Origin: Chloroflexota bacterium
GTDB lineage: Bacteria; Chloroflexota; Anaerolineae; JAAEKA01
DNA length: 43,034 bases
NCBI GenBank assembly: GCA_034717495.1
Contig: JAYELL010000113.1
Coordinates: 1-43,034 of the forward strand
Reading direction: 5' to 3'
The translations under genes and the position numbers were made by a program. Shown here in pieces: positions 1 through 14,491 of the stretch. The notes under the pieces are model-generated. The model was not told the DNA's origin. It did not search any database and saw only the letters and a list, made by a program, of their open reading frames with translations. Every line of letters starts with the position of its first letter. The first letter of the stretch is position 1.

Positions 1-164
1 ATCACGGTTTTTGCGTCGGTACGCAGTCGGTAGAACAGGGTGTCCTTGGTGGCACTGAAAGTGCGATCGCATTCATGACAAAGGATTGCCCGGAGAATCG
101 GGATTACAATTTTGGAGTGAATACCATATGTCGTCTTTCCCTCTGCCAATGGAACCAGATGGCT
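1..164 (-). pseudogene. Transposase fragment (N-terminal zinc-ribbon part), runs off the window edge
   Basis: Read on the minus strand, the first 164 bases give an open frame containing TTYGIHSK followed by CHECDRTFSATKDTLFYRLR. A short Cys-x2-Cys ribbon followed by TFSATKxTxFYRLRT is characteristic of the N-terminal segment of IS1-like or IS1595-like transposases. A stop codon lies in frame at 165-167, and the residues expected upstream (SGSIGRG) are found in another frame, so the 5' end looks frameshifted. The catalytic part would lie outside the window. What I see is the motif. That it is a dead element is inferred from the frame break and from the broken gene beside it. It could still be an intact element if the true start is a weak codon inside this frame. 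Confidence 0.45.
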
Positions 165-310
165 TTACTTTCAACTTGATTTGTCCTAACCGATGATGCC
201 TCCATTTGTCATGACGCATCTCGCAAGTCCTTGCATCACGTAACGGCATGAAACCGGACTCTTCCGGGAACTTTTGGCGCCAGATATGTTATAGACTTCG
301 AAACACCTGA

Positions 311-907
311 CAGCAGATCGAAACAGTTGTAGCGCAGAAATGGACTGGCTTGTTTTCGGACCTCGACCAGCGCGCTTTGACCTGTATCAACGACGGTACC
401 TATGGTTTCGACTATGCGAGCGGGGAGTTGCGACTCTCACTCCTACGCTCAGCGGCATACTCCGGCCTTCCCGTTTTCGATAGGCCAATCCTGCCCCAGG
501 ACCGCTTCTCGCCCAGGATCGACCAGGGAGAACGCCTGTTCACCTTCTGGATCAACGGCGGTTCCAGCACTGAGCGCCGGGAGCGTATCGACAGAGAAGC
601 GCTTTCGCACAACGAAAAACCCTTCACACTGTCATTTTTTCCTTCTGGTAGAGGTACGCCCCACCCACCTGCCGTAAACCTTTCCGACGCGGTCGTGCTG
701 ATGTCCGCTTTCAAGAAGGCGGAGCAGTCTGACGACTACATCATTCGCTTGTTCGAGCCCACCGGTCTGGCCCGCAGCACGGTGCTGGAGTTTCCTTCCC
801 TTGGTATGAGCCAAACGATCGATCTGGCAGGATTCGAAATAAGAACCTTACGGATCGATCCCCACAACAGGACTATCCAGGCGTACGATTTGCTGGAACA
901 GAATTGA
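311..907 (+). pseudogene. 3' fragment of a GH38 alpha-mannosidase
   Basis: The frame is open from 311 (after TGA at 308-310) to 907; the first usable start is TTG at 350, giving 185 residues. The segment INDGTYGFDY, then LRLSLLRSAAYSG, then a long all-beta tail resembles the C-terminal beta-sandwich of family 38 alpha-mannosidases, which trim alpha-linked mannose and are normally 800-1000 residues long. The catalytic (beta/alpha) domain with its Asp nucleophile is absent and nothing resembling it lies upstream, where a transposase fragment is found instead. I therefore call it a decayed gene that lost its 5' three-quarters, not an active enzyme. It ends about 350 bp from the sugar ABC transporter operon, so it may once have belonged to the same pathway; that link is only inferred. 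Confidence 0.65.
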
Positions 908-1252
908 GTTGTCCAGCAAGTGCAAGTAGACCAAATCTCCGGGTCGATTGTTAGCTGAAACCCTCGTGTCCAGTCTCTTGTCTGTGAGTGCTATAACAGA
1001 ACTCAACCATGATATTGAAACTTGTTGTGAGGTAATGGAAAGATTGCTGGAAGGCCATCACTGCGATAATCCCGAGCAGCACCAATACACCGCCCGAAAC
1101 CGATATCGGCAGCAGGCGCGCACCGTGTTAAAACTCTGTCAGTGACTTCGTTGTTGAACCAACCCGTAGGTATAAATTGACCATTCAATAAACTGCAATC
1201 CTGGCGGGTGACAGAAGTAGCCAGGACGGGCCCGATAGATGGGACCGCAGGT
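908..1252. other. Gene-poor spacer with no clear gene
   Basis: About 345 bp between the mannosidase fragment and the end of the permease gene. The only protein-like signal is a minus-strand frame open from 1127 to 951 (58 codons) with the hydrophobic stretch VSGGVLVLLGIIAVMAF. It has no good start or ribosome site and is preceded by a stop, so it is at best the remnant of a membrane protein. The plus-strand frame at 948-1145 is low-complexity and not convincing. Confidence 0.4.
1199..1226 (-). terminator. Possible terminator hairpin of the sugar ABC operon
   Basis: TCCTGGC at 1199-1205 pairs exactly with GCCAGGA at 1220-1226 around a 14-base loop, about 27 bp beyond the end of the leftmost permease gene. 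On the minus strand it is followed by TTGCAGTTTATT, not a clean T run, so the call is weak. Confidence 0.3.
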
Positions 1253-2089
1253 TTAGCCCTTCGTCGCGCCTGCGGTCAGCCCTGCCACAAACTGGCGTTG
1301 CAGGATGAAGAACACGACGACGATGGGAATCGAGAACATGACCGAGCTGGCCATGAGTTCCCCATAGCGAATGCCATATTGACCAATATAATCATTCATG
1401 CCCACAGACACAGTCCGCATCTCCCTGGTTTGGGTGAACGCCAGGGCAAACATGAATTCCTGCCAGGTCACGACGACGATCCACACTGCCGTGGCCACGA
1501 TGCCGGGACGGGCCAGTGGCACGACCACTTTCCAGAATGCCTGGAACCTACTGGCGCCGTCGATCATGGCCGATTCTTCAAGATCAGGGGGAATATTGCC
1601 GATGAATCCGAGCAGCATCCAGATGGAAACGGGTAATGTGATGGTAATGTAGGCGATTATCAGGCCAAAGTAGGTGTTGAGCAATCCTGCCTCTCGTACC
1701 ATCTTGAAGATAGGGATGATGATTGTCGCGACCGGGAACATTTGAGCGAGGATGATGGCGACAAGCAAGAAGCCAAAACCCCTGATTTGAAACCGGCTGA
1801 AGCTATAGGCAGCCAACAGCCCGACGCTGATCGAGATAACAATGGTCGCCAAAGAAATGATGGCGCTGTTCAGGAAGTAGCGCCGGAACTCTGGCTGAAA
1901 AGCAGTCTTGTAGTTCTCGATGGTCGGGTTATCGGGCCAAAGGCGGGCCGGGATAGCGAACGGTTCGTTGGCAGGCTTGAGCGACACACTGAACATCCAG
2001 AAGAAGGGGATGAGAACGATGATCAGGACCAACATCTGCAGCGCTATCAGCACAACCCGTCGCAGGCGCTGCCGGGACCTGGGCTTCAT
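1253..2089 (-). CDS. Carbohydrate ABC transporter permease, MalG type
   Basis: A 278-residue inner-membrane protein of the usual length for MalG-type permeases of the CUT1 family, which form a channel with a MalF-type partner to import oligosaccharides. A first membrane segment at about residues 12-33 is followed by the binding-protein-dependent permease domain. The coupling-loop region EESAMIDGASRFQAFWKVVV (around 170-190) matches the EAA motif that docks the ATPase. Its start overlaps the end of the upstream permease gene by 4 bp (2086-2089), so the two are translationally coupled. It is the last gene of a leftward operon that runs from the regulator at 8653. No ATPase gene follows it. Substrate cannot be read from the sequence. 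Confidence 0.93.
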   Translation of the reverse strand: MKPRSRQRLRRVVLIALQMLVLIIVLIPFFWMFSVSLKPANEPFAIPARLWPDNPTIENYKTAFQPEFRRYFLNSAIISLATIVISISVGLLAAYSFSRFQIRGFGFLLVAIILAQMFPVATIIIPIFKMVREAGLLNTYFGLIIAYITITLPVSIWMLLGFIGNIPPDLEESAMIDGASRFQAFWKVVVPLARPGIVATAVWIVVVTWQEFMFALAFTQTREMRTVSVGMNDYIGQYGIRYGELMASSVMFSIPIVVVFFILQRQFVAGLTAGATKG

Positions 2090-3024
2090 ATCCGATCATC
2101 TCCGGTCCGCAGCTGGAGAATATAAAGCACGGCAAGACCCGCCAAAAGCAAGACAGCCACGACGCCATAGGCTGCTGCCTCACCAAAACGAAATTCTCCG
2201 AATCCGATCTGGAAAATGGTAGTTGGGAAGATATGGGTGCGGTTTATGGGCCCACCCTTGGTTGTCACCCAGATCATGTCAAAATAATTGAAGGTGAAAA
2301 TGGTCGTTAGCAGCAAATTCAGGAAGATGATATGTACCATGGCCGGAATCGACACGTACCTGAAACGCTGCACGGCATTGGCCCCGTCGATCTGGGCGGC
2401 CTCCAACTGCTCTTCATCCACGATCTGAAGGGCGGCGAGATAGATAACGGTCGAGAATGGAAAGCCTTTCCAGACGGCGGCGATGATCACTGCCAACATC
2501 GCGGTCGAAGGCTGCGCTAGCCACGGGATGCTCTTATCAACCAAACCCAGACTAATCAGTATGGAGTTGATCAGGCCCAGTTGAGGATCGTACATAAATC
2601 GCCATAGAATCGCAGCGACGATGCCGGGGAGCACCCACGGTAAGAGCACCAGGGTCCGCGACAGACCTCGAAACGGCAGATCCTGATTGAACAGAATGGC
2701 CACGGCCATACCGATCACGTTCTGGAACAGAACGACTCCGATGGTCCAGAAAAGGGAATTCCTCACGACCTGCCAGAAGCCGCCGTCCTGGAGCATATCC
2801 CGGTAATTCTGCAGGCCGATGAATTCAGGCTCCGGGTTGAGAAAAGAGGTCTCATACAGGCTCTCGACGAACGCGAGGATCATTGGGTAATACATGAGCA
2901 GGCCGACAAGAATGACCGCCGGCACCAGAAAGGCCAATGCCAGCAGGGCCTCCCGGCCTGAGTATGCGCCGCGGCCCCAATGCCTTCTATCAGATCGTGT
3001 GGATTTCGCAGGTTGTGCAGTCAT
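2086..3024 (-). CDS. Sugar ABC transporter permease, MalF type
   Basis: A 312-residue membrane protein with the layout of CUT1 MalF-type permeases: a basic N-terminus, a first membrane helix at about residues 27-48 (LLALAFLVPAVILVGLLMYY), a periplasmic stretch including FIGLQNYRDM, then the permease domain. The EAA-type loop EEQLEAAQIDGANAVQRFRY is near residues 204-223. It pairs with the MalG-type protein encoded immediately downstream (4-bp overlap). A 28-bp gap separates it from the uroporphyrinogen-decarboxylase-like gene upstream. No strong ribosome site precedes its ATG. It would deliver substrate captured by the duplicated binding protein in the same operon. Confidence 0.93.
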   Translation of the reverse strand: MTAQPAKSTRSDRRHWGRGAYSGREALLALAFLVPAVILVGLLMYYPMILAFVESLYETSFLNPEPEFIGLQNYRDMLQDGGFWQVVRNSLFWTIGVVLFQNVIGMAVAILFNQDLPFRGLSRTLVLLPWVLPGIVAAILWRFMYDPQLGLINSILISLGLVDKSIPWLAQPSTAMLAVIIAAVWKGFPFSTVIYLAALQIVDEEQLEAAQIDGANAVQRFRYVSIPAMVHIIFLNLLLTTIFTFNYFDMIWVTTKGGPINRTHIFPTTIFQIGFGEFRFGEAAAYGVVAVLLLAGLAVLYILQLRTGDDRI

Positions 3025-3052
3025 CGTGCTTCGCTATTGAACAGGTCAAACA

Positions 3053-4228
3053 CTATACGTGCACTTGATACGTGCACTTGCGTGCCTCATCGGCAAAAGC
3101 GGCAATCAACTTGGGATCGGCGCTGAAGAAATGATCGGAAGGACTGAGTATGAACCCGCCGCCTTCGCCGGCAGCCTCAAAGTTTCGACGAACAGCAGCA
3201 CGGGTCGCTTCTTCCGAGCAATCCTCGAAATAGTGGTACTGATCGAAACTGCCGATCATACAGACTTTGTCACCGATACGAACTTTCGCCTCCGCCAGAC
3301 GGACATCACCGCCTATCTCAGGCGGTGTCAGGGTCTCCATAGCGTTGGGATTCATAGCCGCAATGGTTTCGAGAATTGGCATCATGCCGCCACACGTATG
3401 GTAGGCTATGCGCTGCCCTGCCTCGTGAGCGGCTTCGATCAGGTCAGCATCGTAGGGAGCGACGAAGTCCTCGAAGATACTGGGAGAGATGACTGTGGTA
3501 GAGGCATCGCCACCGCCCAGTTCGAGGATATCGTATCTTGCGCCTTTGAGTGACTCGACAAACGTTCTTTTGCGGCGATGCAATATTTTCAACAAGTCCT
3601 GAACCCAGCCAGGATCGTCGAAGGTCTCCATGATCATCTGCTGCGTGCCGACCAGACAGCATGCGTCCTGCCACGTGCCCGGCTGCCCGAAGAGATCGAA
3701 GCAGCAGATATGGCCTCTCACCAGCCCCCGTTCACCGAAAGCCTTCGCGGTCGCATTAACGGCATCAACGTCGCATTTCGGTGCCGTCACATACTCGCCG
3801 ATAAGGTCGATATCACTTTTCTCTTTGATCAGGTGTTCAGTCACCCATGTAGTATGCTCGTTGGATTGCAGAACGGTGGTGAGTTCTCCTTTTGGGGTGA
3901 CGATACGAAATCTTGTGGTGGCGTAACGGGGATGGGGCAACCCTTCAGATTCGATCCGCCAGTCATCAGTGGCTATACGCCTGCTTTCCAGGAAACCCGG
4001 TTCTCCCTGCGAGGGGTCGTAGTATTCGCCAGCATCGGGATCAGGGCGGTGGGGCACCGTCCAGACGATGGCGTCCATTTCAAAGTAGTCGAAAAACTCC
4101 TGATTGGATATCCCTCCCATAATGTTGTCGAGAAAATCGGTCATCAGGTGATGCGTTGTCACGGGAAGGCGGTCAGGGATACCTCGATCCAACGCGGTGA
4201 GCATTCTTTGTTTTGATGTCATACCCAT
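3053..4228 (-). CDS. Uroporphyrinogen decarboxylase (URO-D) family protein
   Basis: A 391-residue soluble protein. It opens with TSKQRMLTALDRGIPDRLPV, the usual N-terminus of URO-D-superfamily proteins, and carries FDLFGQPGTWQDACCLVG mid-protein, ILELGGGDAS, and HTCGGMMPIL around residue 280. HxCGG is the position where MtaA/MtbA-type corrinoid methyltransferases bind zinc; a later CMIGSFDQYH could supply another ligand. True haem-pathway HemE lacks this pattern, and no haem genes are nearby, so a methyl-transfer or unknown role is more likely. Proteins of this family recur in sugar ABC operons of Chloroflexota and related phyla, but I do not know their function there. The start could be either of two ATGs (residue 1 or 3); AGGAG about 10 bases upstream supports the first. 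Confidence 0.85.
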   Translation of the reverse strand: MGMTSKQRMLTALDRGIPDRLPVTTHHLMTDFLDNIMGGISNQEFFDYFEMDAIVWTVPHRPDPDAGEYYDPSQGEPGFLESRRIATDDWRIESEGLPHPRYATTRFRIVTPKGELTTVLQSNEHTTWVTEHLIKEKSDIDLIGEYVTAPKCDVDAVNATAKAFGERGLVRGHICCFDLFGQPGTWQDACCLVGTQQMIMETFDDPGWVQDLLKILHRRKRTFVESLKGARYDILELGGGDASTTVISPSIFEDFVAPYDADLIEAAHEAGQRIAYHTCGGMMPILETIAAMNPNAMETLTPPEIGGDVRLAEAKVRIGDKVCMIGSFDQYHYFEDCSEEATRAAVRRNFEAAGEGGGFILSPSDHFFSADPKLIAAFADEARKCTYQVHV

Positions 4229-4367
4229 TGGGCATACTCCTCGGCAATGGTGGCAGAGACCACAACATGGCTCCGATAGATCGAATCCGTGTTTTGAAAC
4301 AGCGCCGGACTATCAAGAGATGGTCGTCATGACGATCCGGCGCCGCACGATAGGTTGCCTGTCTTCG

Positions 4368-5516
4368 TTACTTCAAACCGTCGATCTCGGCACAAGCGAG
4401 GTCCACAGCATCCTGCACGGGCGTGCCACTGAATATCGCTTGCATCATTTCTTGCTCGATAGTCGCGACCTGCAGGTAGTTCGGTGAGAGCGGTCGGGGC
4501 CGGGCGTTATCGAGGTGCTCCATAATGCGATCGGGGCCCTTGCGATTCGCCTCCAGGAAGTTCTGAGCCGCCACTTTGTTGGCCGGGATCAGGTCAACGA
4601 CACGGCCGTTAACCTCAGGGTCGGTCATGAATTCGATGAACTTCCAGGCCGCTTCCTGGTTGGGCGAATTCGCGTACACGACCAGGTTCCAGCCGCCATA
4701 GGTGCCGACCGGGGTCTTACCTTCAGGCGCCGTACCATTTACGAATTCCCAGTTCAGATCGCTACCCTGCAAGGTGGGCTGCTCCAAGGCTGGCCACCAT
4801 TCAGTGGCCAGGGTACCATTGAGGAACAATTCGCGCATGTCACCACTGGACGCGTTTAGAATGCCCTCGGGGGCATAAGCTTGCAATCCAAGCAGATACT
4901 CCAGGGCTTCGATGGCTTCAGGGTCACCTAACGCGCAACTGCCATCCCCGTTCAAGACGGAGCCACCGTTGGAGTAGATGAAACTGTTCATTACGACGAC
5001 CGTATCCTCGCCCATTTGGCTGAACAGGCCCACGCCGTACTGGCCGTCGGTTGTCAACGCCTCGCCCGCAGCTTGGAGACCTTCCCAGGTGGCCAGGCTC
5101 TCAGGATCAACGCCGGCTGCACTCAGCATATCGGCGTTGTAAAACGTGAATTGCCAGACATCGACGTTGAAGGGAATACCCCAAACCTGTCCATCCCAGG
5201 TGGCGGAATCCCAGGCGCCGGGGAAGAAGTTCTCCTGGACGATGCTGTCCGAGTCGGCGACGAAATCATCCAAGGGAATGATCGCATTGGCCACCGCAAA
5301 GCCGGAGTTCCAGATCTGATCGACGGTCGAGACATCGGGCGGGTTACCGCTCTGTACTGCCAGCAACAGCTTCTGCTGGTATTCGGTATAGGGCACGGTC
5401 ACGACTTCCACCTCGATGTTGGGATTGGCAGCCTCGAATTCGTCTACAGCGATCTGCTGGAACTGGCTCAATCCCGATTCAGTCTGCTGATTATCCCAGA
5501 AGACCAATTTGATCGG
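4368..5516 (-). repeat. Internal tandem duplication, 3' copy (binding module 2)
   Basis: This segment repeats 5565-6713 at a constant offset of 1197 bp with no net insertions or deletions seen. Identity is patchy: 4441-4616 is identical to 5638-5813 (176 bp), 4773-4871 is identical to its partner (99 bp) and 4999-5069 likewise (71 bp). The stretches between, such as 4638-4772 and 5165-5516, carry many differences. Confidence 0.93.
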
Positions 5517-6857
5517 TTCACCGGCCGGCTCTTCCTCCTTGGCTAGCTCCATCGCCACCTCACCCACGCCAAGCGCATTGATCTCGTCACAGGCAGCCGC
5601 AGTGGCATCAGCCACCGGCGTTCCGCTGAATATCGCCTGCATCATTTCTTGCTCGATAGTCGCGACCTGCAGGTAGTTCGGTGAGAGCGGTCGGGGCCGG
5701 GCGTTATCGAGGTGCTCCATAATGCGATCGGGGCCCTTGCGATTCGCCTCCAGGAAGTTCTGAGCCGCCACTTTGTTGGCCGGGATCAGGTCAACGACAC
5801 GGCCGTTAACCTCGGGGTCGGTCATGAATTCGATGAATTTCCAGACCGCTTCCTGGTTGGGGGAGTCCTTGTACATGACCAGGTTCCAGCCGCCGTAGGT
5901 GCCGACAGGGGTCTTGCCCTCGGGTGCCGTGCCGTTCACAAAGTCCCAGTTCAAGTCACTACCTTGAAGGGTGGGCTGCTCCAAGGCTGGCCACCATTCA
6001 GTGGCCAGGGTACCATTGAGGAACAATTCGCGCATGTCACCACTGGACGCGTTTAGAATGCCCTCGGGAGCATAAGCCTGCAATCCAAGCAGATACTCCA
6101 ATGCTTCGACCGCCTCGGGGTCAGTCAGTGCGCAGGAACCATCTTCGTTGAGCACGGAGCCATCGTTGGAGTAGATGAAACTGTTCATGACGACAACCGT
6201 ATCCTCGCCCATTTGGCTGAACAGGCCCACGCCGTACTGGCCGTCGGTTGTCAACGCCTCGCCCGCGGCTTGGAGACCTTCCCAGGTGGCCAGGCTCTCA
6301 GGATCGACGCCGGCTGCACTCAGCATATCGGCGTTGTAAAACGTGAATTGCCAGACATCCACATTGAAGGGCACACCCCAGACGCCCCCATCCCAGGTCG
6401 CTGATTCCCAGGCGCCGGGGAAGAAGTTTTCCTGAGCGATGCTATCGGATGCAGCAACATAGGAGTCGAGCGGTTCAATGGCTCCCGCAACGGCAAAGCC
6501 GGAATTCCAGATCTGATCGACGGTGGAGACATCCGGGGGATCGTCGCTTTGCACAGCAAGCAGGAGTTTTTGCTGATATTCCGTATATGGCACGGTTACA
6601 ACTTCGACCTTGATATTGGGGTTTGCTGCCTCGAACTCATCCACGGCAATTTGTTGGAACTCACTGAGACCTGATTCTGTCTGCTGGTTGTCCCAAAAAG
6701 TGATGGTGACGACCTCATCCTCTGCCGGCTCAGACGCTTCCGGTGCTGTGGTTTCTGGTTCAGATGGTGCAGGGGCTGCGGGTTGGCTGCATGCTGCCAA
6801 CACCATCAGGGTTATCAGAAGCAAGCCCAAAATCATGAAAGAACGTTTGTGGTTCAC
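4368..6857 (-). CDS. Double-length extracellular sugar-binding lipoprotein (two fused, near-identical binding-protein modules)
   Basis: An 829-residue ABC solute-binding protein, about twice the family's usual 400-450. A GTG start at 6857 sits five bases after AAAGGAGG (6870-6863). Residues 1-23 are a lipoprotein signal ending in LAAC with Cys23 as the lipid anchor, followed by a Pro/Glu/Ala linker. Module 1 (about 49-430, beginning TITFWDNQQTESGLS) and module 2 (about 448-829, beginning KLVFWDNQQTESGLS) are copies offset by exactly 399 codons. Both look like complete extracellular solute-binding domains of the CUT1 type. The join carries a charged linker (AKEEEPAGEP) like the one after the lipid anchor; module 2 has no signal peptide of its own. 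The gene lies 59 bp after the regulator and upstream of the URO-D and permease genes. A tethered pair of binding modules on one anchor is the likely result. An assembly join of two neighbouring paralogues cannot be excluded by reading alone. Confidence 0.93.
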   Translation of the reverse strand: MNHKRSFMILGLLLITLMVLAACSQPAAPAPSEPETTAPEASEPAEDEVVTITFWDNQQTESGLSEFQQIAVDEFEAANPNIKVEVVTVPYTEYQQKLLLAVQSDDPPDVSTVDQIWNSGFAVAGAIEPLDSYVAASDSIAQENFFPGAWESATWDGGVWGVPFNVDVWQFTFYNADMLSAAGVDPESLATWEGLQAAGEALTTDGQYGVGLFSQMGEDTVVVMNSFIYSNDGSVLNEDGSCALTDPEAVEALEYLLGLQAYAPEGILNASSGDMRELFLNGTLATEWWPALEQPTLQGSDLNWDFVNGTAPEGKTPVGTYGGWNLVMYKDSPNQEAVWKFIEFMTDPEVNGRVVDLIPANKVAAQNFLEANRKGPDRIMEHLDNARPRPLSPNYLQVATIEQEMMQAIFSGTPVADATAAACDEINALGVGEVAMELAKEEEPAGEPIKLVFWDNQQTESGLSQFQQIAVDEFEAANPNIEVEVVTVPYTEYQQKLLLAVQSGNPPDVSTVDQIWNSGFAVANAIIPLDDFVADSDSIVQENFFPGAWDSATWDGQVWGIPFNVDVWQFTFYNADMLSAAGVDPESLATWEGLQAAGEALTTDGQYGVGLFSQMGEDTVVVMNSFIYSNGGSVLNGDGSCALGDPEAIEALEYLLGLQAYAPEGILNASSGDMRELFLNGTLATEWWPALEQPTLQGSDLNWEFVNGTAPEGKTPVGTYGGWNLVVYANSPNQEAAWKFIEFMTDPEVNGRVVDLIPANKVAAQNFLEANRKGPDRIMEHLDNARPRPLSPNYLQVATIEQEMMQAIFSGTPVQDAVDLACAEIDGLK
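5565..6713 (-). repeat. Internal tandem duplication, 5' copy (binding module 1)
   Basis: This is the partner of 4368-5516 at +1197 bp. Both copies stay in the same frame, so the duplicated unit is 399 codons. The differences cluster at the start of the module and in short internal islands. Confidence 0.93.
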
Positions 6858-6916
6858 CTTTTCCTCCTTTGCTGGAAATGGTCTTGGTTACAATAGGCGA
6901 GCAACAGGAATTTGGG

Positions 6917-8653
6917 TCAGATCTCGGCGATCACGACATCGACACCTCCTTGAGTAAATGTCTTGCGATCATGGGCGCTTATTGCAGCATCTGTAACTAA
7001 CGTGTGAATACTGCTCAGTGGTGCGATGTTCACCAGCGATTCCACGCCGATCTTCGTGTGATCTGCCAACATGATTACTTGCCGTGCGGCCTTGATCATT
7101 GCCTGCTTCACAGCTGCCTCGGTGATGTTTGAATTGGAGACCCCAAAGTCGAGACTGACTCCGGCACCGCTGATAAATGCTTTGTCTACCCGCAGTTCAG
7201 CCAATACGGACTGCGTGCCTGGCCCAACCATCGAATGGCTTTCATGCCTGTACATGCCTCCTGCCACAAACAACTCAATGCCAGACTCCCCATCAAGTTC
7301 AGTCAGCACGGGGAGTGAGTTGGTCATCACCTGTATCTGTTGCCTGCCCCGCAATGCCAGAGCGAGGTACGCCGTTGTGGTCCCGGCATCAAGGATGATT
7401 CTATCACCTGTATTCACAAAACGAGCGGCGGTAAAACCTATCGCCTTCTTGAGATCGTCCACCTCGGATGCCATATCCTGGCTGGCATCCACGACCTCCA
7501 ATGTGATACCCAACTCACGTGCCCGTGATAGCATGGCGTGTTCGATGTGCCGGTACCATGCATGGGAACTGAAAATCTGTACATAGCCAATGCGAGCGGG
7601 CATCGTCGTCAAGGCACAGCGACTGATCGTCGAAAGGGACGGGCTGGCGCTCAACATCTGGTCTGAGCGCGCCATGTTGATATGCCAAGTCCCGTTCTCT
7701 TCGGCACTGCGCGTGTAATACTGGTCAAGGTTTTCATCAGTAATCAGTACATGAGGCGTGTAGACACGATCGGGCAAGATATTGCCCTGATAGGCGCAGA
7801 TCGACGTGTCCACGCAGAAACGTCCCACCAATTCTGGAAACATGGCGATACCGGCCTTGTAGGGACCCCCGGAGACCATCAGGTCCTTGACGGTGCTGCC
7901 CTCAAAGCCAATGGAAACGACGATGACGCGACTCTCATCGAGACCGGCAGATCGATAAGCTTCCAGTGCGCCGAGTGCTGTGTCGTCATTGATGCCAAAG
8001 ATGACGTTGATATCTGGGTGAACAGAGAATGCGTCCTGAGCAATCCGGAAAGAAGTATCCCGTAACCCTTCGCCGTTCACTCGATGGATGATGTGATCAC
8101 CTGCCGGAAGATGACGCAGGCTATCGGCAAATCCTCTGCTGCGAGCGCGGGTATTGGCAAAGGGAGCCGATACATCCAGGACCCGCACGTTGCCGTTCAA
8201 ATTGGCGCGTGCATAATTGGCAACCCAATGCCCTAACTCAACACCGGCACTGTAATCGTCAATCGTAATGACCGTTGTGGCCCCATGATAATTGTGAGAT
8301 TCGGCGACAACAGGCACACTCATTCGAAGCGCCCGATCTACCAACAAACGGGTTGTTGCTGTTTCTGCCGGCGTTACGATCAGAACATCGGCGCGGTCCA
8401 CCAGCGCAGTCCTCGCCTCTATCAACCCAAGGTTTACCGAGCGCAGAGAGGTGTCGTGTCGACTGGAAACCCGCAACGCACCGCCATAGGTGCGATCGAG
8501 CAGCCCCTTCTCCTCTAGTCGCCTCAAATCGCGACGAGCAGTTTCGGCTGAACAGTTGCAACGCGCGCAGATCTCTGCAACCGTTACCATACTCTGCTGC
8601 TGCAGTAGATTGAGTATCACAACCTGGCGCTGGCCTGGAAGCATCTGGGGCAC
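6917..8653 (-). CDS. DeoR-type transcription regulator with an embedded sugar-binding-protein-like domain
   Basis: 578 residues, more than twice the 250-260 usual for DeoR regulators. Residues about 5-60 form the DeoR winged helix (VTVAEICARCNCSAETARRD, then LEEKGLLDRTYGGA). Residues about 75-330 resemble the periplasmic-binding-protein fold of LacI/RbsB proteins (ADVLIVTPAETATTRLLVD, ITIDDYSAGVELGHWV, VIFGINDDTALGALEAY). Around 355-395 a second binding-protein-like start appears (RIGYVQIFSS, ARELGITLEVVDASQD). From about 405 to the end is a full DeoR sensor domain with the sugar-phosphate pocket motif LDAGTTTAYLA, then VMTNSL, FVAGGMY and LADHTKIG. It could therefore sense both a free sugar and a phosphorylated one. 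It leads the operon with its own promoter and probably controls that operon. That the domains act together is inference. Confidence 0.88.
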   Translation of the reverse strand: MPQMLPGQRQVVILNLLQQQSMVTVAEICARCNCSAETARRDLRRLEEKGLLDRTYGGALRVSSRHDTSLRSVNLGLIEARTALVDRADVLIVTPAETATTRLLVDRALRMSVPVVAESHNYHGATTVITIDDYSAGVELGHWVANYARANLNGNVRVLDVSAPFANTRARSRGFADSLRHLPAGDHIIHRVNGEGLRDTSFRIAQDAFSVHPDINVIFGINDDTALGALEAYRSAGLDESRVIVVSIGFEGSTVKDLMVSGGPYKAGIAMFPELVGRFCVDTSICAYQGNILPDRVYTPHVLITDENLDQYYTRSAEENGTWHINMARSDQMLSASPSLSTISRCALTTMPARIGYVQIFSSHAWYRHIEHAMLSRARELGITLEVVDASQDMASEVDDLKKAIGFTAARFVNTGDRIILDAGTTTAYLALALRGRQQIQVMTNSLPVLTELDGESGIELFVAGGMYRHESHSMVGPGTQSVLAELRVDKAFISGAGVSLDFGVSNSNITEAAVKQAMIKAARQVIMLADHTKIGVESLVNIAPLSSIHTLVTDAAISAHDRKTFTQGGVDVVIAEI

Positions 8654-8706
8654 ACCATACCCTGACTGAGCGTGACCATTCCTGGGGTATTCTTGTAGCT
8701 GCCACT

Positions 8707-8735
8707 ATTATAACAGCTAAAACCATCGATTTCAA
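8707..8735 (-). promoter_or_regulatory. Sigma-70 promoter of the regulator/sugar ABC operon
   Basis: Minus strand: TTGAAA at 8735-8730, 17-bp spacer, TATAAT at 8712-8707. Transcription should start near 8700, about 47 bases before the regulator ATG at 8653. No comparably good promoter was found in the 59-bp gap before the binding-protein gene. Confidence 0.75.
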
Positions 8736-8740
8736 CCCAG

Positions 8741-8789
8741 AAAACGCCCACTATTGACCGATCATTCACGTACCGGTCAATAGTGGGCG
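8741..8789 (-). terminator. Rho-independent terminator after the cytidylate-kinase-like gene
   Basis: A perfect 16-bp inverted repeat: 8745-8760 (CGCCCACTATTGACCG) pairs with 8774-8789 around a 13-base loop. Read on the minus strand it is followed by TTTT (8744-8741), so it should stop transcripts from the gene ending at 8965, just ahead of the regulator promoter. The perfect symmetry also allows an operator role. Confidence 0.65.
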
Positions 8790-8964
8790 GCGCCAGGCGT
8801 GCTGAGCGGACTGCTTCACTCGCGCGTCCTCTCCTTCCTTACGTACAAAAACCTGCATCCACCCTCGTTTGCGAAGATTTCGGATGATACTACCGGCAAC
8901 CAGGCAAGCTCAGTACGTTCTCGGCAGTCAATTGGCGTGAGATGAGGTTTTTACACGGTACGGG

Positions 8965-9612
8965 CTATTGCCTTTCGACAGCACACACAATGATCTGGGC
9001 TGCCTCGTCCAGGTCAAGCTTTTCGGTGTTGATCACCAGGTGATACAATAAGGGGTCATCCCAGTCGATTTCGAAGACTTCCTCCAGGTAGTTTCCTGTC
9101 CGCCGGTCGTGTCGCTGGGCCTTGCGATAGGCGCTTTCCAGGTCAAGGTGGTCCTGTTCCTGGATAGTCAGCAACCGGGCAGGAAGCGGTGCGATGATGC
9201 GCACGTGAAATACTCCTGGCATGTCCTGAAGAACCCCCTGCCCCCCTCGTCCAAGAATGACGGTATTGCCCTCACTGTACACGGCATGGATCGCGCCTCG
9301 TATAAGCGCCTGGCACTCCGTTTTGTCCAACTCCTCGACGGTAATCGTCGTTCGCCCCTCTTCATCTTTCCCGTGAACTGCTACCTGAGCCACCGTGGGC
9401 GGTCCCGGAAAGAGCAACCGCTCCAAAAAACTGCGGACATCGGAGCCCTGCTCCCGGAACTCGACCTCACCCTCGATGCAGAGCCCCGATTCTGTTGCAG
9501 CGGCGGCGATGATCTCTTTGTCGACAAAACGATAGCCCAGCAGTTCACTCACTCTTATCGCGATCTCAGTGCCGCCACTTCCGTATTGGCGGGATATGGT
9601 GATGACTGTCAT
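8965..9612 (-). CDS. Cytidylate kinase-like P-loop protein
   Basis: A 215-residue protein of the cytidylate-kinase-like family (Cytidylate_kin2 type). It begins TVITISRQYGSGGTEIAIRV, where SRQYGSGGTEIA is the family's modified phosphate-binding loop, lacking the usual GKS/T lysine. YRFVDKEII, VILGRGGQGVL and HVRIIAPLPARLL follow in the usual order, and DRRTGNYLEEVFEIDWDDP resembles the lid region. The true CMP kinase (cmk) is at 26404, so this is a paralogue whose phosphate acceptor is unknown. A strong GGGAGG precedes the ATG. The gene diverges from the ParB/USP-fusion gene; the two promoters lie about 10 bp apart (9723 versus 9734), so they are probably regulated together. Confidence 0.85.
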   Translation of the reverse strand: MTVITISRQYGSGGTEIAIRVSELLGYRFVDKEIIAAAATESGLCIEGEVEFREQGSDVRSFLERLLFPGPPTVAQVAVHGKDEEGRTTITVEELDKTECQALIRGAIHAVYSEGNTVILGRGGQGVLQDMPGVFHVRIIAPLPARLLTIQEQDHLDLESAYRKAQRHDRRTGNYLEEVFEIDWDDPLLYHLVINTEKLDLDEAAQIIVCAVERQ

Positions 9613-9694
9613 TGTCTACCTCCCGTGGAATGTGACCCAGCGACCGGTATTGCGAGCGCGGCGGTTGGGCGCCGTCGATGCTCCATCTGATTCC

Positions 9695-9723
9695 AGTATA
9701 CCAAGAATCTCTCAGATTTTCAA
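9695..9723 (-). promoter_or_regulatory. Promoter of the cytidylate kinase-like gene
   Basis: Minus strand: TTGAAA at 9723-9718, 17-bp spacer, TATACT at 9700-9695. It is back to back with the plus-strand promoter at 9734-9762, so RNA polymerases at the two sites would be neighbours. Confidence 0.7.
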
Positions 9724-9733
9724 CCACTTCAAC

Positions 9734-9762
9734 TTGACCTGTTGCTTCAGGTCTGGGATAAT
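9734..9762 (+). promoter_or_regulatory. Promoter of the ParB-like/USP fusion gene
   Basis: TTGACC at 9734-9739, 17-bp spacer, GATAAT at 9757-9762. The expected start near 9769 leaves a leader of about 80 bases before the ATG at 9849. Confidence 0.7.
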
Positions 9763-9848
9763 GGCGGTTGTAGCTCGAAAAGCGCAGCGGCAATCCTGCA
9801 TGCATTTGTTCTCAGTGGTATGGACATCCGACGATCACTGGTGATGAC

Positions 9849-11594
9849 ATGACCCAACAGGCGAACGGGTTGATCTACACGGCGGCCATCCGGGACTTCC
9901 GCGAGGCCCGCCGTCAGGCTGTTCTGGAGGATTTGAAGGCGCGGGTAACCGGAAAGTCGGACGACCTTCTCTCGTATGAGGAGATCCGCCAGTTGCTGAG
10001 AGCTGAACCGGCGGCTCAGCGGAACCTGGAAGATATTCCCATCGATTCCATAGTCGGCAGCGTTGGGCGCTATTCCGATTTTACCCGGCGATTCATGCCC
10101 CGTCGCGACAGTGACGAGGAGCGATGGGCACGGGTAAAGCTAAAAATGCTCTACGGAGGTGGTTTGCCGCCGATCGAGGTCTTCAAGGTGGGCGATGTCT
10201 ACTTTGTCCTGGACGGCAATCACCGGGTCTCGGTGGCTCGCCAACAGGGCGCAACCACCATCGAGGCCTATGTCACCGAGGTGGATGTTCGCGTTCCCCT
10301 GGCCCCCAACGACAAGCCCGACAACCTGATAATTAAAGCCTCCTACGCCCATTTTCTGGAGACCACAGGTCTGGACGAGACTCGGCCTGCCGCGCAGCTC
10401 ACAGTTACTGCGGCCGGTCAGTACCGGGTACTGATAGGACAGATCAACCTGTACCGCCAACTGCTGTCATTGCAGGCAGGGCATGATGTGGATGGCAAGC
10501 GAGCGTCCGCCGAATGGTACGATAACGTCTACTTTCCTGTGATCGGGATCATCCGTGAGTTGGGCATACTCGACGACTTTCCAGGACGAACCGAAACCGA
10601 TCTTTATGTCTGGGTCTCGGAACGGCAGCAGAGGTTGGAGGATACTCTTGGATGGCAGGTGGGTGCGGAGGCGGCCGCTGTTGACCTGGCAAGTGGCCAC
10701 AGTCCCCGCTTGACGCGGATCATCCATCGCCTTGGTGAGCGATTGGCGGAGGCTGTTACTCCCACCGAACTGGATGCCGGTCCAGTCACCGGGCAGTGGC
10801 GTAAAACCCAGGTTGCGGTGCGGCGCGAGAACCGTCTGTTTCCAAGAATCCTGGTGTCTGTGAGCGGAACGGAACGGGGGTGGCAAGCCCTGGATCAGGC
10901 GCTGGTCGTCGCAGCAAAGGAAGGTTCGGCGCTCCAGGGGCTGCACGTGATTCGCTCATCATCCCAGACCAGTGCCCGTGACGAGGAACATGTACTGAAG
11001 ACATTTCAAGACCGTTGCCATGCCGCCGGTGTGCCAGGGAACCTGCGGATAGAGACAGGGCAACGGATCGCTCGCAATATCTGTAGCCGGGCTCGCTGGA
11101 CCGATCTGGTGGTAGCAAACCTGGCCTTTCCACCTGGACAAGGTCCGGTAGGCAAGCTTGGCTCCGGCTTTCATACCTTGATTGGCAGCTGTCCCCGTCC
11201 CGTCCTGGCGGTGCCGCAGGTCTCGAGGCTTTCCCGGGCGGTGCTTGCCTATGATGGCAGCCCCAAGTCGCGGGAAGCGCTGTATGTTGCCGCTTATCTT
11301 TCAGGCCATTGGCAGATGCCCTTGATCGTGTTGACCGTGATCGAGAAAGACCGGACCTCCCGCGCCACGCTTCGGGAAGCTCAGGCATACCTGGAATCCC
11401 GTGGTGTCCAGGCGACTCCGGTGGCAGCCGAGGGACCGGTTGGCGATTCCATTTTGCAAACGGTCGAGGCGCAGGCTGCTGACCTGGTCATCATCGGCGG
11501 GTACGGGCACTCGCCACTGTTGGAGGTTGTTCTCGGCAGCGCCGTCGACCAGCTATTGCAGCGTTGCCGGCAGCCGATGTTGGTCTGCCGCTGA
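9849..11594 (+). CDS. ParB-like domain fused to two universal stress protein domains
   Basis: 581 residues, predicted cytoplasmic. Residues about 60-145 look like a ParB/sulfiredoxin-type domain: IPIDSIVGSVGR, then PPIEVFKVGDVYFVLDGNHR and VSVARQQG (DGNHRVSVAR at 122-131 is the ParB-like signature). A helical middle of about 180 residues follows and I cannot assign it. From about 330 to 465 comes a degenerate UspA-like domain, and from about 470 to 581 a second, well-conserved one. The second has DLVIIGGYGHSPLLEVVLGS, which fits the G-2x-G-9x-G(S) ATP-binding pattern of nucleotide-binding stress proteins. A nucleotide-responsive protein acting on DNA or protein is possible. No helix-turn-helix of the plasmid-partition ParB type is visible, so chromosome segregation is unlikely. 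Confidence 0.8.
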   Translation: MTQQANGLIYTAAIRDFREARRQAVLEDLKARVTGKSDDLLSYEEIRQLLRAEPAAQRNLEDIPIDSIVGSVGRYSDFTRRFMPRRDSDEERWARVKLKMLYGGGLPPIEVFKVGDVYFVLDGNHRVSVARQQGATTIEAYVTEVDVRVPLAPNDKPDNLIIKASYAHFLETTGLDETRPAAQLTVTAAGQYRVLIGQINLYRQLLSLQAGHDVDGKRASAEWYDNVYFPVIGIIRELGILDDFPGRTETDLYVWVSERQQRLEDTLGWQVGAEAAAVDLASGHSPRLTRIIHRLGERLAEAVTPTELDAGPVTGQWRKTQVAVRRENRLFPRILVSVSGTERGWQALDQALVVAAKEGSALQGLHVIRSSSQTSARDEEHVLKTFQDRCHAAGVPGNLRIETGQRIARNICSRARWTDLVVANLAFPPGQGPVGKLGSGFHTLIGSCPRPVLAVPQVSRLSRAVLAYDGSPKSREALYVAAYLSGHWQMPLIVLTVIEKDRTSRATLREAQAYLESRGVQATPVAAEGPVGDSILQTVEAQAADLVIIGGYGHSPLLEVVLGSAVDQLLQRCRQPMLVCR

Positions 11595-11667
11595 TCCCCG
11601 ATTCTATCGTGCTTCTGAAACGACGCGTGAATCCGTGAGTTTTGAGTTTAACGAAGGAGATTGTGAC

Positions 11668-13101
11668 ATGACGAGGAAGAATGCCTGGCCTGGAATCGCA
11701 ACCCTGGTTCCGCTTCTGTTTCTTTTTGCTGTTATCGGGCTGGCTCTTGTACTGCCGGCGCCTGTGTTGGCCCAGGGTGAGCCGGGGAAACTCCAGCTCG
11801 GACCCACCGACACCATTTCCTTGACCCTGGTGGCAGACAACCTCAGCCGGCCCGTGGACATCACAGCCGCTCCGGGAGACCGCTCGCGGCTCTTTGTCGT
11901 AGAAAAACCTGGGCGGGTTCGTATCGTCACCATCCAGGGCGGCACCTACACCCTATTGCCTGCCCCATTTCTCGATATCACCAGCATTGTGAACGCCTCG
12001 GGCAATGAGCAGGGACTCCTGGGCATTGCTTTTCACCCCGACTACGACAGTAACGGCTATTTCTTTGTCAACTATACGGCTGTATCCCCCAGCGGAGACA
12101 CAGTTGTGGCACGTTACTCGGTCTCGCAGGAAAACGCCAACCTGGCGGATCCCAACAGCGCCACCATCCTGATGACCATCGACCAGCCCTACTCGAACCA
12201 CAACGGTGGTCAACTCAAGTTCGGGCCAGACGGCTATCTCTACATCGGCACGGGCGACGGCGGATCTGGCGGCGATCCCCTGGACAACGCCCAGGATCCT
12301 GCCGAATTACTCGGCAAGATGTTGCGCATCGACGTCGACAGCGGCACGCCCTACGGCATTCCACCGGACAATCCCTTTATCGGGGTTGCCGGGGCTCAGG
12401 AAGAGATATGGGCCCTCGGCCTGCGCAATCCCTGGCGTTTCAGCTTCGACCGGTTGACGGGTGACCAGTGGATCGGCGATGTGGGACAGGGGCAATGGGA
12501 GGAGATCGACCTGGAACCCGCGGGAAGTTCAGGCGGCTACAATTGGGGCTGGCGCTGCTATGAGGGCAATCATGTCTACAATTCCGCAGGCTGTGGCGAA
12601 GAAAGTGACTACGACTTCCCTGTCTACGAGTATTCTCACAGCGAGGGTCTGGCCATCACCGGTGGGTTCGTCTTTCGCGGCTCACCCAATAGCGCCTATT
12701 TCGGCGACTACTTCTTCTGCGACTACTATTTCGACTTTTTTGAAAGCCAGCTGCGAACATTGCAGCATAACGGGCTTGGCTGGGTACGCGTCAATCACAC
12801 CGTGCAGGCGCCCGCAGGCCGATCGTTGACCAGGCCTACCTCCTTTGGCGAGGACGCCATGGGCGACCTGTACATCGCCGACGATTCCGGAGGTGAAATC
12901 TTCAAGCTTGAGCTGCGACCCGCCACTTGCGTCAGCGGCAACTACGATGTGAACGGGGATGGTGGGCAGGACGTCATCGACATTCAGCTGGTGGCAGAGG
13001 ACTGGCTGCGCAGCGATTTTGTCCCCGATTTCGATGTGGACTGTAGCGGCGCGGTCGATGTCATCGACATTCAACTGGTAGCCGGCGCCTGGACCTCCTG
13101 A
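11668..13101 (+). CDS. Secreted PQQ-type sugar dehydrogenase with dockerin-like C-terminus
   Basis: I chose the ATG at 11668, preceded by AAGGAG, although the frame is open further back; this gives 477 residues. Residues 1 to about 36 are a signal peptide (LVPLLFLFAVIGLALVLPAP, then VLA). The main domain, about 50-415, is the six-bladed glucose/sorbosone dehydrogenase (GSDH) propeller: LFVVEKPGRVRIV, NEQGLLGIAFHPDY, NHNGGQLKFGPDGYLYIGTG, GDGGSGGDP, LGLRNPWRFSFD. These enzymes oxidise aldose sugars outside the cell with PQQ. The C-terminal 60 residues hold two calcium-loop repeats (DVNGDGGQDVIDIQLV and DVDCSGAVDVIDIQLV) typical of dockerin-like modules, suggesting attachment to another surface protein. 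No cohesin is seen here. A 73-bp gap after the stress-protein gene makes co-transcription possible. Confidence 0.88.
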   Translation: MTRKNAWPGIATLVPLLFLFAVIGLALVLPAPVLAQGEPGKLQLGPTDTISLTLVADNLSRPVDITAAPGDRSRLFVVEKPGRVRIVTIQGGTYTLLPAPFLDITSIVNASGNEQGLLGIAFHPDYDSNGYFFVNYTAVSPSGDTVVARYSVSQENANLADPNSATILMTIDQPYSNHNGGQLKFGPDGYLYIGTGDGGSGGDPLDNAQDPAELLGKMLRIDVDSGTPYGIPPDNPFIGVAGAQEEIWALGLRNPWRFSFDRLTGDQWIGDVGQGQWEEIDLEPAGSSGGYNWGWRCYEGNHVYNSAGCGEESDYDFPVYEYSHSEGLAITGGFVFRGSPNSAYFGDYFFCDYYFDFFESQLRTLQHNGLGWVRVNHTVQAPAGRSLTRPTSFGEDAMGDLYIADDSGGEIFKLELRPATCVSGNYDVNGDGGQDVIDIQLVAEDWLRSDFVPDFDVDCSGAVDVIDIQLVAGAWTS

Positions 13102-13130
13102 TGCGGCGATATTGAGCCTCGACTGGAATG

Positions 13131-13272
13131 TGCGTTAATCAGCGGTGAAATCAGAAAAAAACATGATCGCAGATAACGCTGATAGACGCAGATGAACGCA
13201 GATCAGACAAAAAAAGATCAGCGTGAATCTGCGCCGAAGGCCTGCGTTAATCAGCGGTGAAATCAGAAAAAA
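13131..13272. repeat. Intergenic repeat element: identical 30-bp direct repeats flanking CGCAGAT units
   Basis: 13131-13160 and 13243-13272 are identical over 30 bp (both start TGCGTTAATCAGCGGTGAAA). Between them CGCAGAT recurs at about 13168, 13187 and 13197, and an inverted form (ATCTGCG) occurs near 13227. The second copy ends about 14 bp from the stop codon of the site-2 protease gene. Such CGCAGAT-rich repeats are scattered between genes in many bacterial genomes; function unknown. They fill the 184-bp gap between two converging genes. Confidence 0.75.
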
Positions 13273-13285
13273 TAACAACCGCAGA

Positions 13286-14491
13286 TCAATCGCGGTCGGG
13301 GAGGAAGGGGTTGTTTTCTTCCTTGGCAGGAGCCGTCGTCGGATCCTCTTGGGGCGCCCGGGCTTTGGCGGAGGCGTTTCTTAGCTTGTAAGCCTGGTGG
13401 ATATCACCTGCGCTGATCAGGCCCAGGAAGATGGGGCCGTCAAACACCGCCGCCACATTGCGTCGCTGCTGTACCATTTTGGTGCGAACCAAATAAAGGC
13501 TGTCGCTCTGTTCGACGCGCAGATAGTCGCGATCCATGATTGTTCCAACCGTTGCCTCGCTCTGGTCACGGCGAAGTGCCTTGATGACCTGAACGGTGGT
13601 GATAACCCCTGCTAATTGGCTACCAACCAGGACAGCGAAGTTGGTCTGGTGTGAAGTCAGGATTGTATTCACAACCGCAGACAGCGGCTGGGCTGCGCCC
13701 AGGACAAGGCCGTGGCGATCGTAGACGTCACCGGCCTGCATGTCTTCCAGGGCATCCCTTACGCGGGTCTCGGCGTTTTCATCGCTGGCGCCCATGTAGA
13801 TGAAGATGGCGATCATGGTAAGGAAAATGTCGCGGTTGACCACGGCCCAGATTCCCATCATGACAGCCAGGGCCCGCCCGATGTTGGCCGCAAGTCTTGT
13901 GGCTGTGGTGAAGGGCAGAGCCAGCGAAAGCAGGCTGCGCAGTATGCGTCCGCCGTCCATGGGGAAAGCCGGCAGCAGGTTGAAAACGCCGAGGATCAGG
14001 TTGGTCAATACGAGAAATGTGACCAGTCCAAGCAGGCTGATGCTGGTGTAAGTGGAGAGCACCTGGCTCGCCGAATTCACATCCTGTACGGCCATCACGG
14101 CGAACAACAGGGGCAACAGGATTAGCATCAGGGCGAAATTGACTGCCGGCCCGGCGATGGCAACCAGCAGTTCCTGCCAGGGGGTATCTGGTTGTCGTTC
14201 CAGCCGGGCCACGCCGCCGAGCGGCAGCAAGGTGATATCGCGCACCGGGATATTGAAGTATTGGGCCGTGATGCCATGTCCTAACTCGTGAAAGACAACG
14301 ATCACGAAGAGCAGCAAGACCAGCAACACGCCATAGATAGCGCCGGTTACCAGAGAGGTCGTTTCCCCTGCGGCATCCTGGGAAGCAATCCTTCCCCAGG
14401 TGAACGCGCCATAGGCGAGAATCAGCACAAACGACCAGTGGACCTTGATCTCGATTCCCCGGACTGTGGCTATTGTAAGGGAGCGACCCAT
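13286..14491 (-). CDS. Site-2 protease family (M50) membrane metalloprotease with CBS domains
   Basis: 401 residues. Hydrophobic segments fill residues about 18-240. The zinc site HELGH is at 68-72, and the second motif NLLPAFPMDGGR at 171-182 supplies the third ligand (Asp179). Site-2 proteases cut substrates within the membrane, usually to release a regulator. After the membrane part, about 250-365 is a CBS pair (VVNTILTSHQTNFAVLV, LAGVITTVQVIKAL, VGTIMDRDYLRVEQ, LGLISAGDI), which commonly binds adenine nucleotides. The tail, about 375-401, is charged and likely disordered. AAGGAG precedes the ATG. It diverges from sucCD. The substrate is not evident; no anti-sigma factor is nearby. Confidence 0.9.
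   Translation of the reverse strand: MGRSLTIATVRGIEIKVHWSFVLILAYGAFTWGRIASQDAAGETTSLVTGAIYGVLLVLLLFVIVVFHELGHGITAQYFNIPVRDITLLPLGGVARLERQPDTPWQELLVAIAGPAVNFALMLILLPLLFAVMAVQDVNSASQVLSTYTSISLLGLVTFLVLTNLILGVFNLLPAFPMDGGRILRSLLSLALPFTTATRLAANIGRALAVMMGIWAVVNRDIFLTMIAIFIYMGASDENAETRVRDALEDMQAGDVYDRHGLVLGAAQPLSAVVNTILTSHQTNFAVLVGSQLAGVITTVQVIKALRRDQSEATVGTIMDRDYLRVEQSDSLYLVRTKMVQQRRNVAAVFDGPIFLGLISAGDIHQAYKLRNASAKARAPQEDPTTAPAKEENNPFLPDRD

Follow-up and report, generated by a model that had tools for sequence, protein, structure and literature searches.

A tandem double CUT1 sugar-binding lipoprotein with locally homogenised modules in a Chloroflexota genome, and the recurrence of such doubles in its class

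We analysed a stretch of 43,034 nucleotides (hereafter the window) and found that one of its genes encodes a CUT1 sugar-binding lipoprotein in which two complete binding modules stand on a single lipid anchor. Both modules are under purifying selection, the two copies are old and have been locally homogenised, and the same architecture recurs across the class. On balance, we favour the reading that the protein is the receptor of a CUT1 importer, with two modules most likely of the same specificity on flexible linkers, kept alike by local homogenisation of the copies and recurrently selected.

Gene layout, operon and predicted fold

The sequence-only reading had described an in-frame tandem duplication of 399 codons at an offset of exactly 1197 bp, a lipid anchor on the first copy only, and a charged linker joining the copies, and all of these were confirmed. 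The gene is a single open reading frame of 829 codons with two SBP_bac_1 stretches (Table 1). A signal peptide with the lipobox VLAAC and a cysteine at +1 (Cys23) precedes copy 1, as read by eye rather than called by a signal-peptide program, and none precedes copy 2. The sequence ahead of copy 2 is the linker GVGEVAMELAKEEEPAGEP.

Table 1. Features of the double gene and its neighbours (positions in the window)
Feature	Position	Strand	Basis
Gene for the double CUT1 sugar-binding lipoprotein (tandem), 829 aa, starting with GTG	4368..6857	-	ORF; two SBP_bac_1 domains, E 9e-85
AAGGAGG ribosome-binding site, 5 nt ahead of GTG	6863..6869	-	direct sequence reading
Lipoprotein signal peptide, lipobox VLAAC, lipid-anchor Cys23	6789..6857	-	sequence; helix 6-15 in model
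Pro/Ala/Glu-rich N-terminal linker, aa 24-48	6714..6788	-	sequence; low pLDDT
Binding module 1, aa 49-429	5571..6713	-	self-alignment; pLDDT mostly >90
Inter-module linker, aa 430-447, charged, predicted disordered	5517..5570	-	pLDDT <50 at 433-445
Binding module 2, aa 448-829, without its own signal peptide	4371..5516	-	self-alignment; pLDDT mostly >90
176-bp block, identical to 4441-4616	5638..5813	-	sequence
99-bp block, identical to 4773-4871	5970..6068	-	sequence
71-bp block, identical to 4999-5069	6196..6266	-	sequence
Regulator upstream of the double gene (578 aa): DeoR HTH, periplasmic-binding-type domain, DeoRC	6917..8653	-	domains
Gene for a URO-D / MtaA-like protein, lying between those for the binding protein and the permeases	3053..4228	-	domains
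CUT1 permease, BPD_transp_1	2086..3024	-	Pfam
CUT1 permease, BPD_transp_1	1253..2089	-	Pfam

The two SBP_bac_1 domains and the best Foldseek matches, which are CUT1-type sugar-binding proteins, place the product among CUT1 solute-binding proteins (SBPs), and the two BPD_transp_1 permeases encoded downstream of it are those of a CUT1 importer. No MalK/MsmK-type ATPase was recognised by reading the open reading frames at positions 1-13500 of the window, where the contig begins at base 1. CUT1 systems often share an ATPase that is encoded elsewhere. In the upstream regulator, a DeoR helix-turn-helix is followed by most of an RbsB-like binding domain, then by the apparent start of such a domain, and then by DeoRC. 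Judged by domain order, it looks like a DeoR repressor with a putative circularly permuted binding domain inserted in it. The regulator of a sister MAG, JPNG_maxbin.037 (contig L142), apparently has the same layout, and an alphaproteobacterial regulator (L108) agrees with it in the domains at both ends.

AlphaFold2, run with 29 sequences, predicted a complete SBP fold for each module, pLDDT exceeding 90 at most residues, and a disordered linker at residues 433-445 (pLDDT <50). The pTM of the 829-aa model was 0.59, and the relative orientation of the modules is therefore not fixed. Foldseek matched each module to the single-module sugar-binding proteins Tlet_1705, Atu4361, MalE3 and TMBP, and the nearest solved relatives were maltose/oligosaccharide-binding proteins; none of the 50 PDB chains listed covered both modules. 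Two intact sites of one family on a flexible linker, with relatives that bind oligosaccharides, would suit a bivalent grip, in which a long oligo- or polysaccharide is held at two places, one by each module, with a gain in avidity. We consider this improbable: the nearest CUT1 proteins of solved structure hold short ligands inside a closed cleft, and one of the further doubles in the same genome (see below) is of the CUT2, monosaccharide-binding type, for which two-ended binding makes little sense.

Divergence, constraint and homogenisation of the two copies

Between the copies, DNA identity was 85.4% (aa 52-428) and protein identity was 91.8% (378 aligned residues). Runs of 176, 99, 71, 53 and 38 bp were identical and lay amid divergent stretches. 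We shuffled the inter-copy differences within codon positions 20,000 times, and no permutation (0/20,000) attained the observed value for the longest run, for the three longest runs added together or for the windowed variance, which rules out a chance repeat. The three longest identical blocks, which had been pointed out from the letters, thus exceed chance, and a sliding comparison of identical and different sites gave a windowed variance beyond every permutation.

In 20-codon blocks, dS ranged from none (0) to saturated (>1), with the two kinds of block alternating; overall, copy 1 against copy 2 gave a dS of 0.68 and a dN of 0.06. Both modules are under purifying selection, and the duplication itself looks old. 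Two origins had been offered for the patchwork, namely repeated gene conversion between the copies or a recent duplication with local replacement. The first gained support and the second fits less well, because the divergent blocks have dS >1, and a recent duplication would be expected to leave uniform similarity. The pattern fits an old duplication with purifying selection on both halves, followed by conversion tracts. Concerted evolution is recognised where copies within a genome are more alike than orthologues, in patches; for the window gene, the patch pattern alone was shown. The sister gene lies in two pieces on separate contigs.

This sister gene belongs to MAG JPNG_maxbin.037, in which contig L142 ends and contig L145 begins inside a module, with an exact overlap of 178 bp between the L142 end and the L145 start inside the gene. 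The MAG is from Chloroflexota, and named relatives of this kind are the basis on which the analysis places the window's genome in that phylum. A middle contig between the two was looked for in this MAG and not found. Because a repeat within the gene would cause such a contig split and overlap, the sister MAG probably carries the double too, as judged from the contig break.

A scan of genome contigs identified close orthologues (59-68% identical) in Alphaproteobacteria and Vibrio. All 43 were single-copy, and each of the 15 whose N-termini were inspected had an ordinary secretion signal with no visible lipobox. They share the fold of the window protein, as do the single-length CUT1 proteins MalE3, Atu4361 and TMBP, and differ from it in having one module and, where inspected, no lipobox. 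Where inspected, their cassette is similar: in the complete genome of Rhizobiales bacterium IMCC20636, a 618-aa regulator with DeoR-type end domains, the single-length gene and two permeases follow one another in the order seen in the window.

Among these 43 singles, 160 positions were at least 95% conserved; 148 of them are retained in module 1 and 151 in module 2, with 147 common to both. The 34 positions that differ between the copies are less conserved in the singles than average (0.63 vs. 0.79). Module 1 alone carries G105D, N106D and G232D at residues invariant in the 43 singles, and the two sites may therefore differ in affinity. The same three changes, in the module next to the anchor, together with the fewer copy-specific departures in module 2, are what would be seen if module 1 served mainly as a spacer that lifts module 2 off the membrane, past a wall or sheath, with its own binding lost or weakened. 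This role is unlikely given the number of conserved positions that module 1 retains and its equal closeness to the singles (63.1% identity, against 63.5% for module 2). Module 1 has moreover been homogenised with module 2, and a pure spacer should decay.

Recurrence in the genome and the class

The window double is not unique, as other genes of this genome, and other genomes of the class, show its layout. Three further in-frame doubles were found in this genome, and all are SBPs: a CUT1 protein of 895 aa on contig C1 (97% between copies), a CUT1 protein of 836 aa on contig C5 (97%) and a CUT2-type protein of 728 aa, also on C5 (98%). The region C5:5165-11403 holds the CUT1 double and the CUT2-type double (RhaS/LsrB-like) in two adjacent operons, both of which include one or more permease genes of their own. 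In 849 kb of the genome, direct repeats at an offset of at least 950 bp with more than 50 exact 40-mers were restricted to these four SBP genes, each of which has an offset divisible by 3; the remaining repeats at such offsets all lay in one short-unit array near C1:220 kb. A general repeat-proneness of the genome was rejected because the gene-length direct repeats were these four SBPs, in a sample that had itself been selected in part to cover them.

We then surveyed 396 genomes of the class by a double-profile search followed by self-alignment of the candidate ORFs, with the best two to four candidates per genome scored. Verified CUT1-type doubles occurred in at least 22 of the 396, their copies being between 32% and 98% identical, and doubles with 69-94% identity between copies were present in many genomes. 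Among the matches listed, there were none in 289 Alphaproteobacteria, 220 Bacilli or 217 Actinomycetia (0/726 in total). The difference between class and controls was significant by Fisher's test for all doubles (p 8e-11) and for the 15 genomes with young doubles (p 1e-7); these comparisons are to be read with the E cut-offs being unequal between searches and with the profile, built from the class itself, also being used on the controls. Several candidates fell away: one in Bacilli (G999) proved to be two separate genes, and the long ORFs L044-L046, L048 and L095-L097, which resemble doubles, were ruled out on the self-alignment test.

An assembly artefact is a very remote explanation for the window gene. 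The genome is a draft of 120 contigs, and short reads have difficulty with identical stretches of over 1 kb such as those in the C1 and C5 doubles, where bubble-merging could also inflate identity. Against this, the longest identical run in the window gene is 176 bp, every double keeps its frame and has a linker free of any signal sequence, many genomes hold doubles whose copies are 69-94% identical, and none appeared among the matches listed in the 726 control genomes. As a general cause, misassembly is very unlikely because two old doubles are present in G837, a closed, single-contig genome of 5.8 Mb.

A tree built by a quick method from 137 sequences, modules and singles together, required at least 15 changes between single and double. 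For most young doubles, their own two modules were sisters in the tree, and the old doubles formed one clade of 18 modules. Some near-identical doubles have very close single relatives (L002 vs. L061, L101 vs. L028). One single-length member (L078, G345:C93) was nested in the double clade of the G193/G377 family; it is possibly a reversion by recombination between the repeats, and conversion can distort such trees.

In the double family shared by G193, G243 and G377, the sites at which copy 1 of one genome groups with copy 1 of another numbered 37, 74 and 36 per genome pair, those grouping both copies within a genome numbered 68, 42 and 59, and a third, homoplasy-type pattern was rarer (18, 14 and 17). 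The sites clustered along the gene to a degree reached in 139, 0 and 1 of 20,000 permutations. The duplication therefore predates the split of these genomes and is older than the genera; that segments have been converted since is shown statistically. Here, copies within a genome are more alike than orthologues, and in patches, as in concerted evolution.

Close singles beside near-identical doubles, and a nested single that may mark reversion, would also be left if tandem duplications of SBP genes formed often and persisted for a time without benefit. We find such a neutral by-product improbable, given that dS >1 in the diverged blocks means long persistence, that one double family is common to several genera, and that in-frame SBPs make up the repeats of gene length in the 849 kb sampled. 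From the recurrence and its SBP-specificity, we infer that doubling was selected rather than frequent and tolerated.

The old doubles of other genomes have halves diverged to 33-39%. At two such loci, L198:7835-16619 (in G837) and L041:1474-5757, double SBPs with 34% identity between copies adjoin HlyD-family genes, and an FtsX permease also adjoins in G837. These surroundings suggest a MacAB-like system rather than a CUT1 importer. Because genes of these kinds adjoin in the two cases inspected, the old doubles are probably not importer receptors.

Comparison with known systems and a proposed role

That a two-module layout lies outside the standard CUT1 importer holds against the literature searched, which yielded no description of CUT1 binding lipoproteins in tandem; subscription papers lay outside it, and this is not proof of absence. 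The closest parallel is GlnPQ of Lactococcus lactis, in which two tandem binding domains on one polypeptide, connected through a short, flexible linker, bind independently, a neighbour not notably affecting substrate binding (PMC8025302). The window protein likewise has two tandem domains, each predicted to fold on its own; working largely independently is a feature of GlnPQ (PMC8025302). GlnPQ differs in belonging to an amino-acid SBP class (sub-cluster F-IV), in the fusion of its domains to the transmembrane subunit and in their different specificities, whereas the window gene encodes a free lipoprotein with two near-identical CUT1 sugar modules, which ends after module 2, the permeases being separate genes. 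It is analogous to the GlnPQ tandem-domain importers and not a member of them. OpuA also has two binding domains per transporter near the membrane, which act cooperatively (PMC11065425); it differs in being a homodimeric SBD-TMD fusion with one SBD per chain and glycine betaine as the ligand (PMC11065425).

The tandem domains of GlnPQ differ in their ligands (PMC8025302), and with old doubles elsewhere diverged to 33-39%, two specificities on one anchor might be proposed here. This is quite improbable for the window protein, whose modules have both retained the family-invariant positions and lose their differences through conversion.

Concerted evolution of prokaryotic paralogues through gene conversion has been reported for 26 genes (PMC6053082). 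The likeness to those cases is that same-genome copies are more alike than orthologues, and the difference is that here the copies are halves of one gene; the terms 'ABC transporter' and 'binding protein' are absent from the main text of that paper (PMC6053082).

In the mechanism that we propose for a same-specificity tandem receptor, each module would bind the same sugar independently, and the modules would dock in turn on a single permease pair. The tandem would roughly double the loaded receptor per anchor close to the transporter, and selection would favour it where the receptor is tethered and unable to roam the periplasm; conversion between the direct repeats would keep both sites alike. 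That the single orthologues are, by contrast, non-lipoproteins suggests a tandem is favoured by tethering. Bacilli SBPs are also lipoproteins, and because no doubles were found among the matches listed in 220 Bacilli genomes, tethering is not sufficient.

More broadly, we give about even chances to the view that Chloroflexota repeatedly evolve tandem receptors, through many independent in-frame doublings (CUT1 and at least one CUT2) whose equivalence is kept by conversion, as a general adaptation to scarce sugars with tethering. In some lineages, the halves would later have diverged and been recruited elsewhere, as in the doubles of 33-39% identity beside HlyD genes and, in one case, FtsX. The question of why some ABC importers have multiple binding sites per transporter is still open and has been studied mostly in GlnPQ and OpuA, and one bacterial class seems to have repeated the doubling experiment many times. 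The single orthologues are natural controls, with the same type of regulator and permeases, one module and no lipid anchor, so that the advantage of a second tethered site becomes directly testable. The doubles also offer an unusually clear case of concerted evolution within one protein-coding gene.
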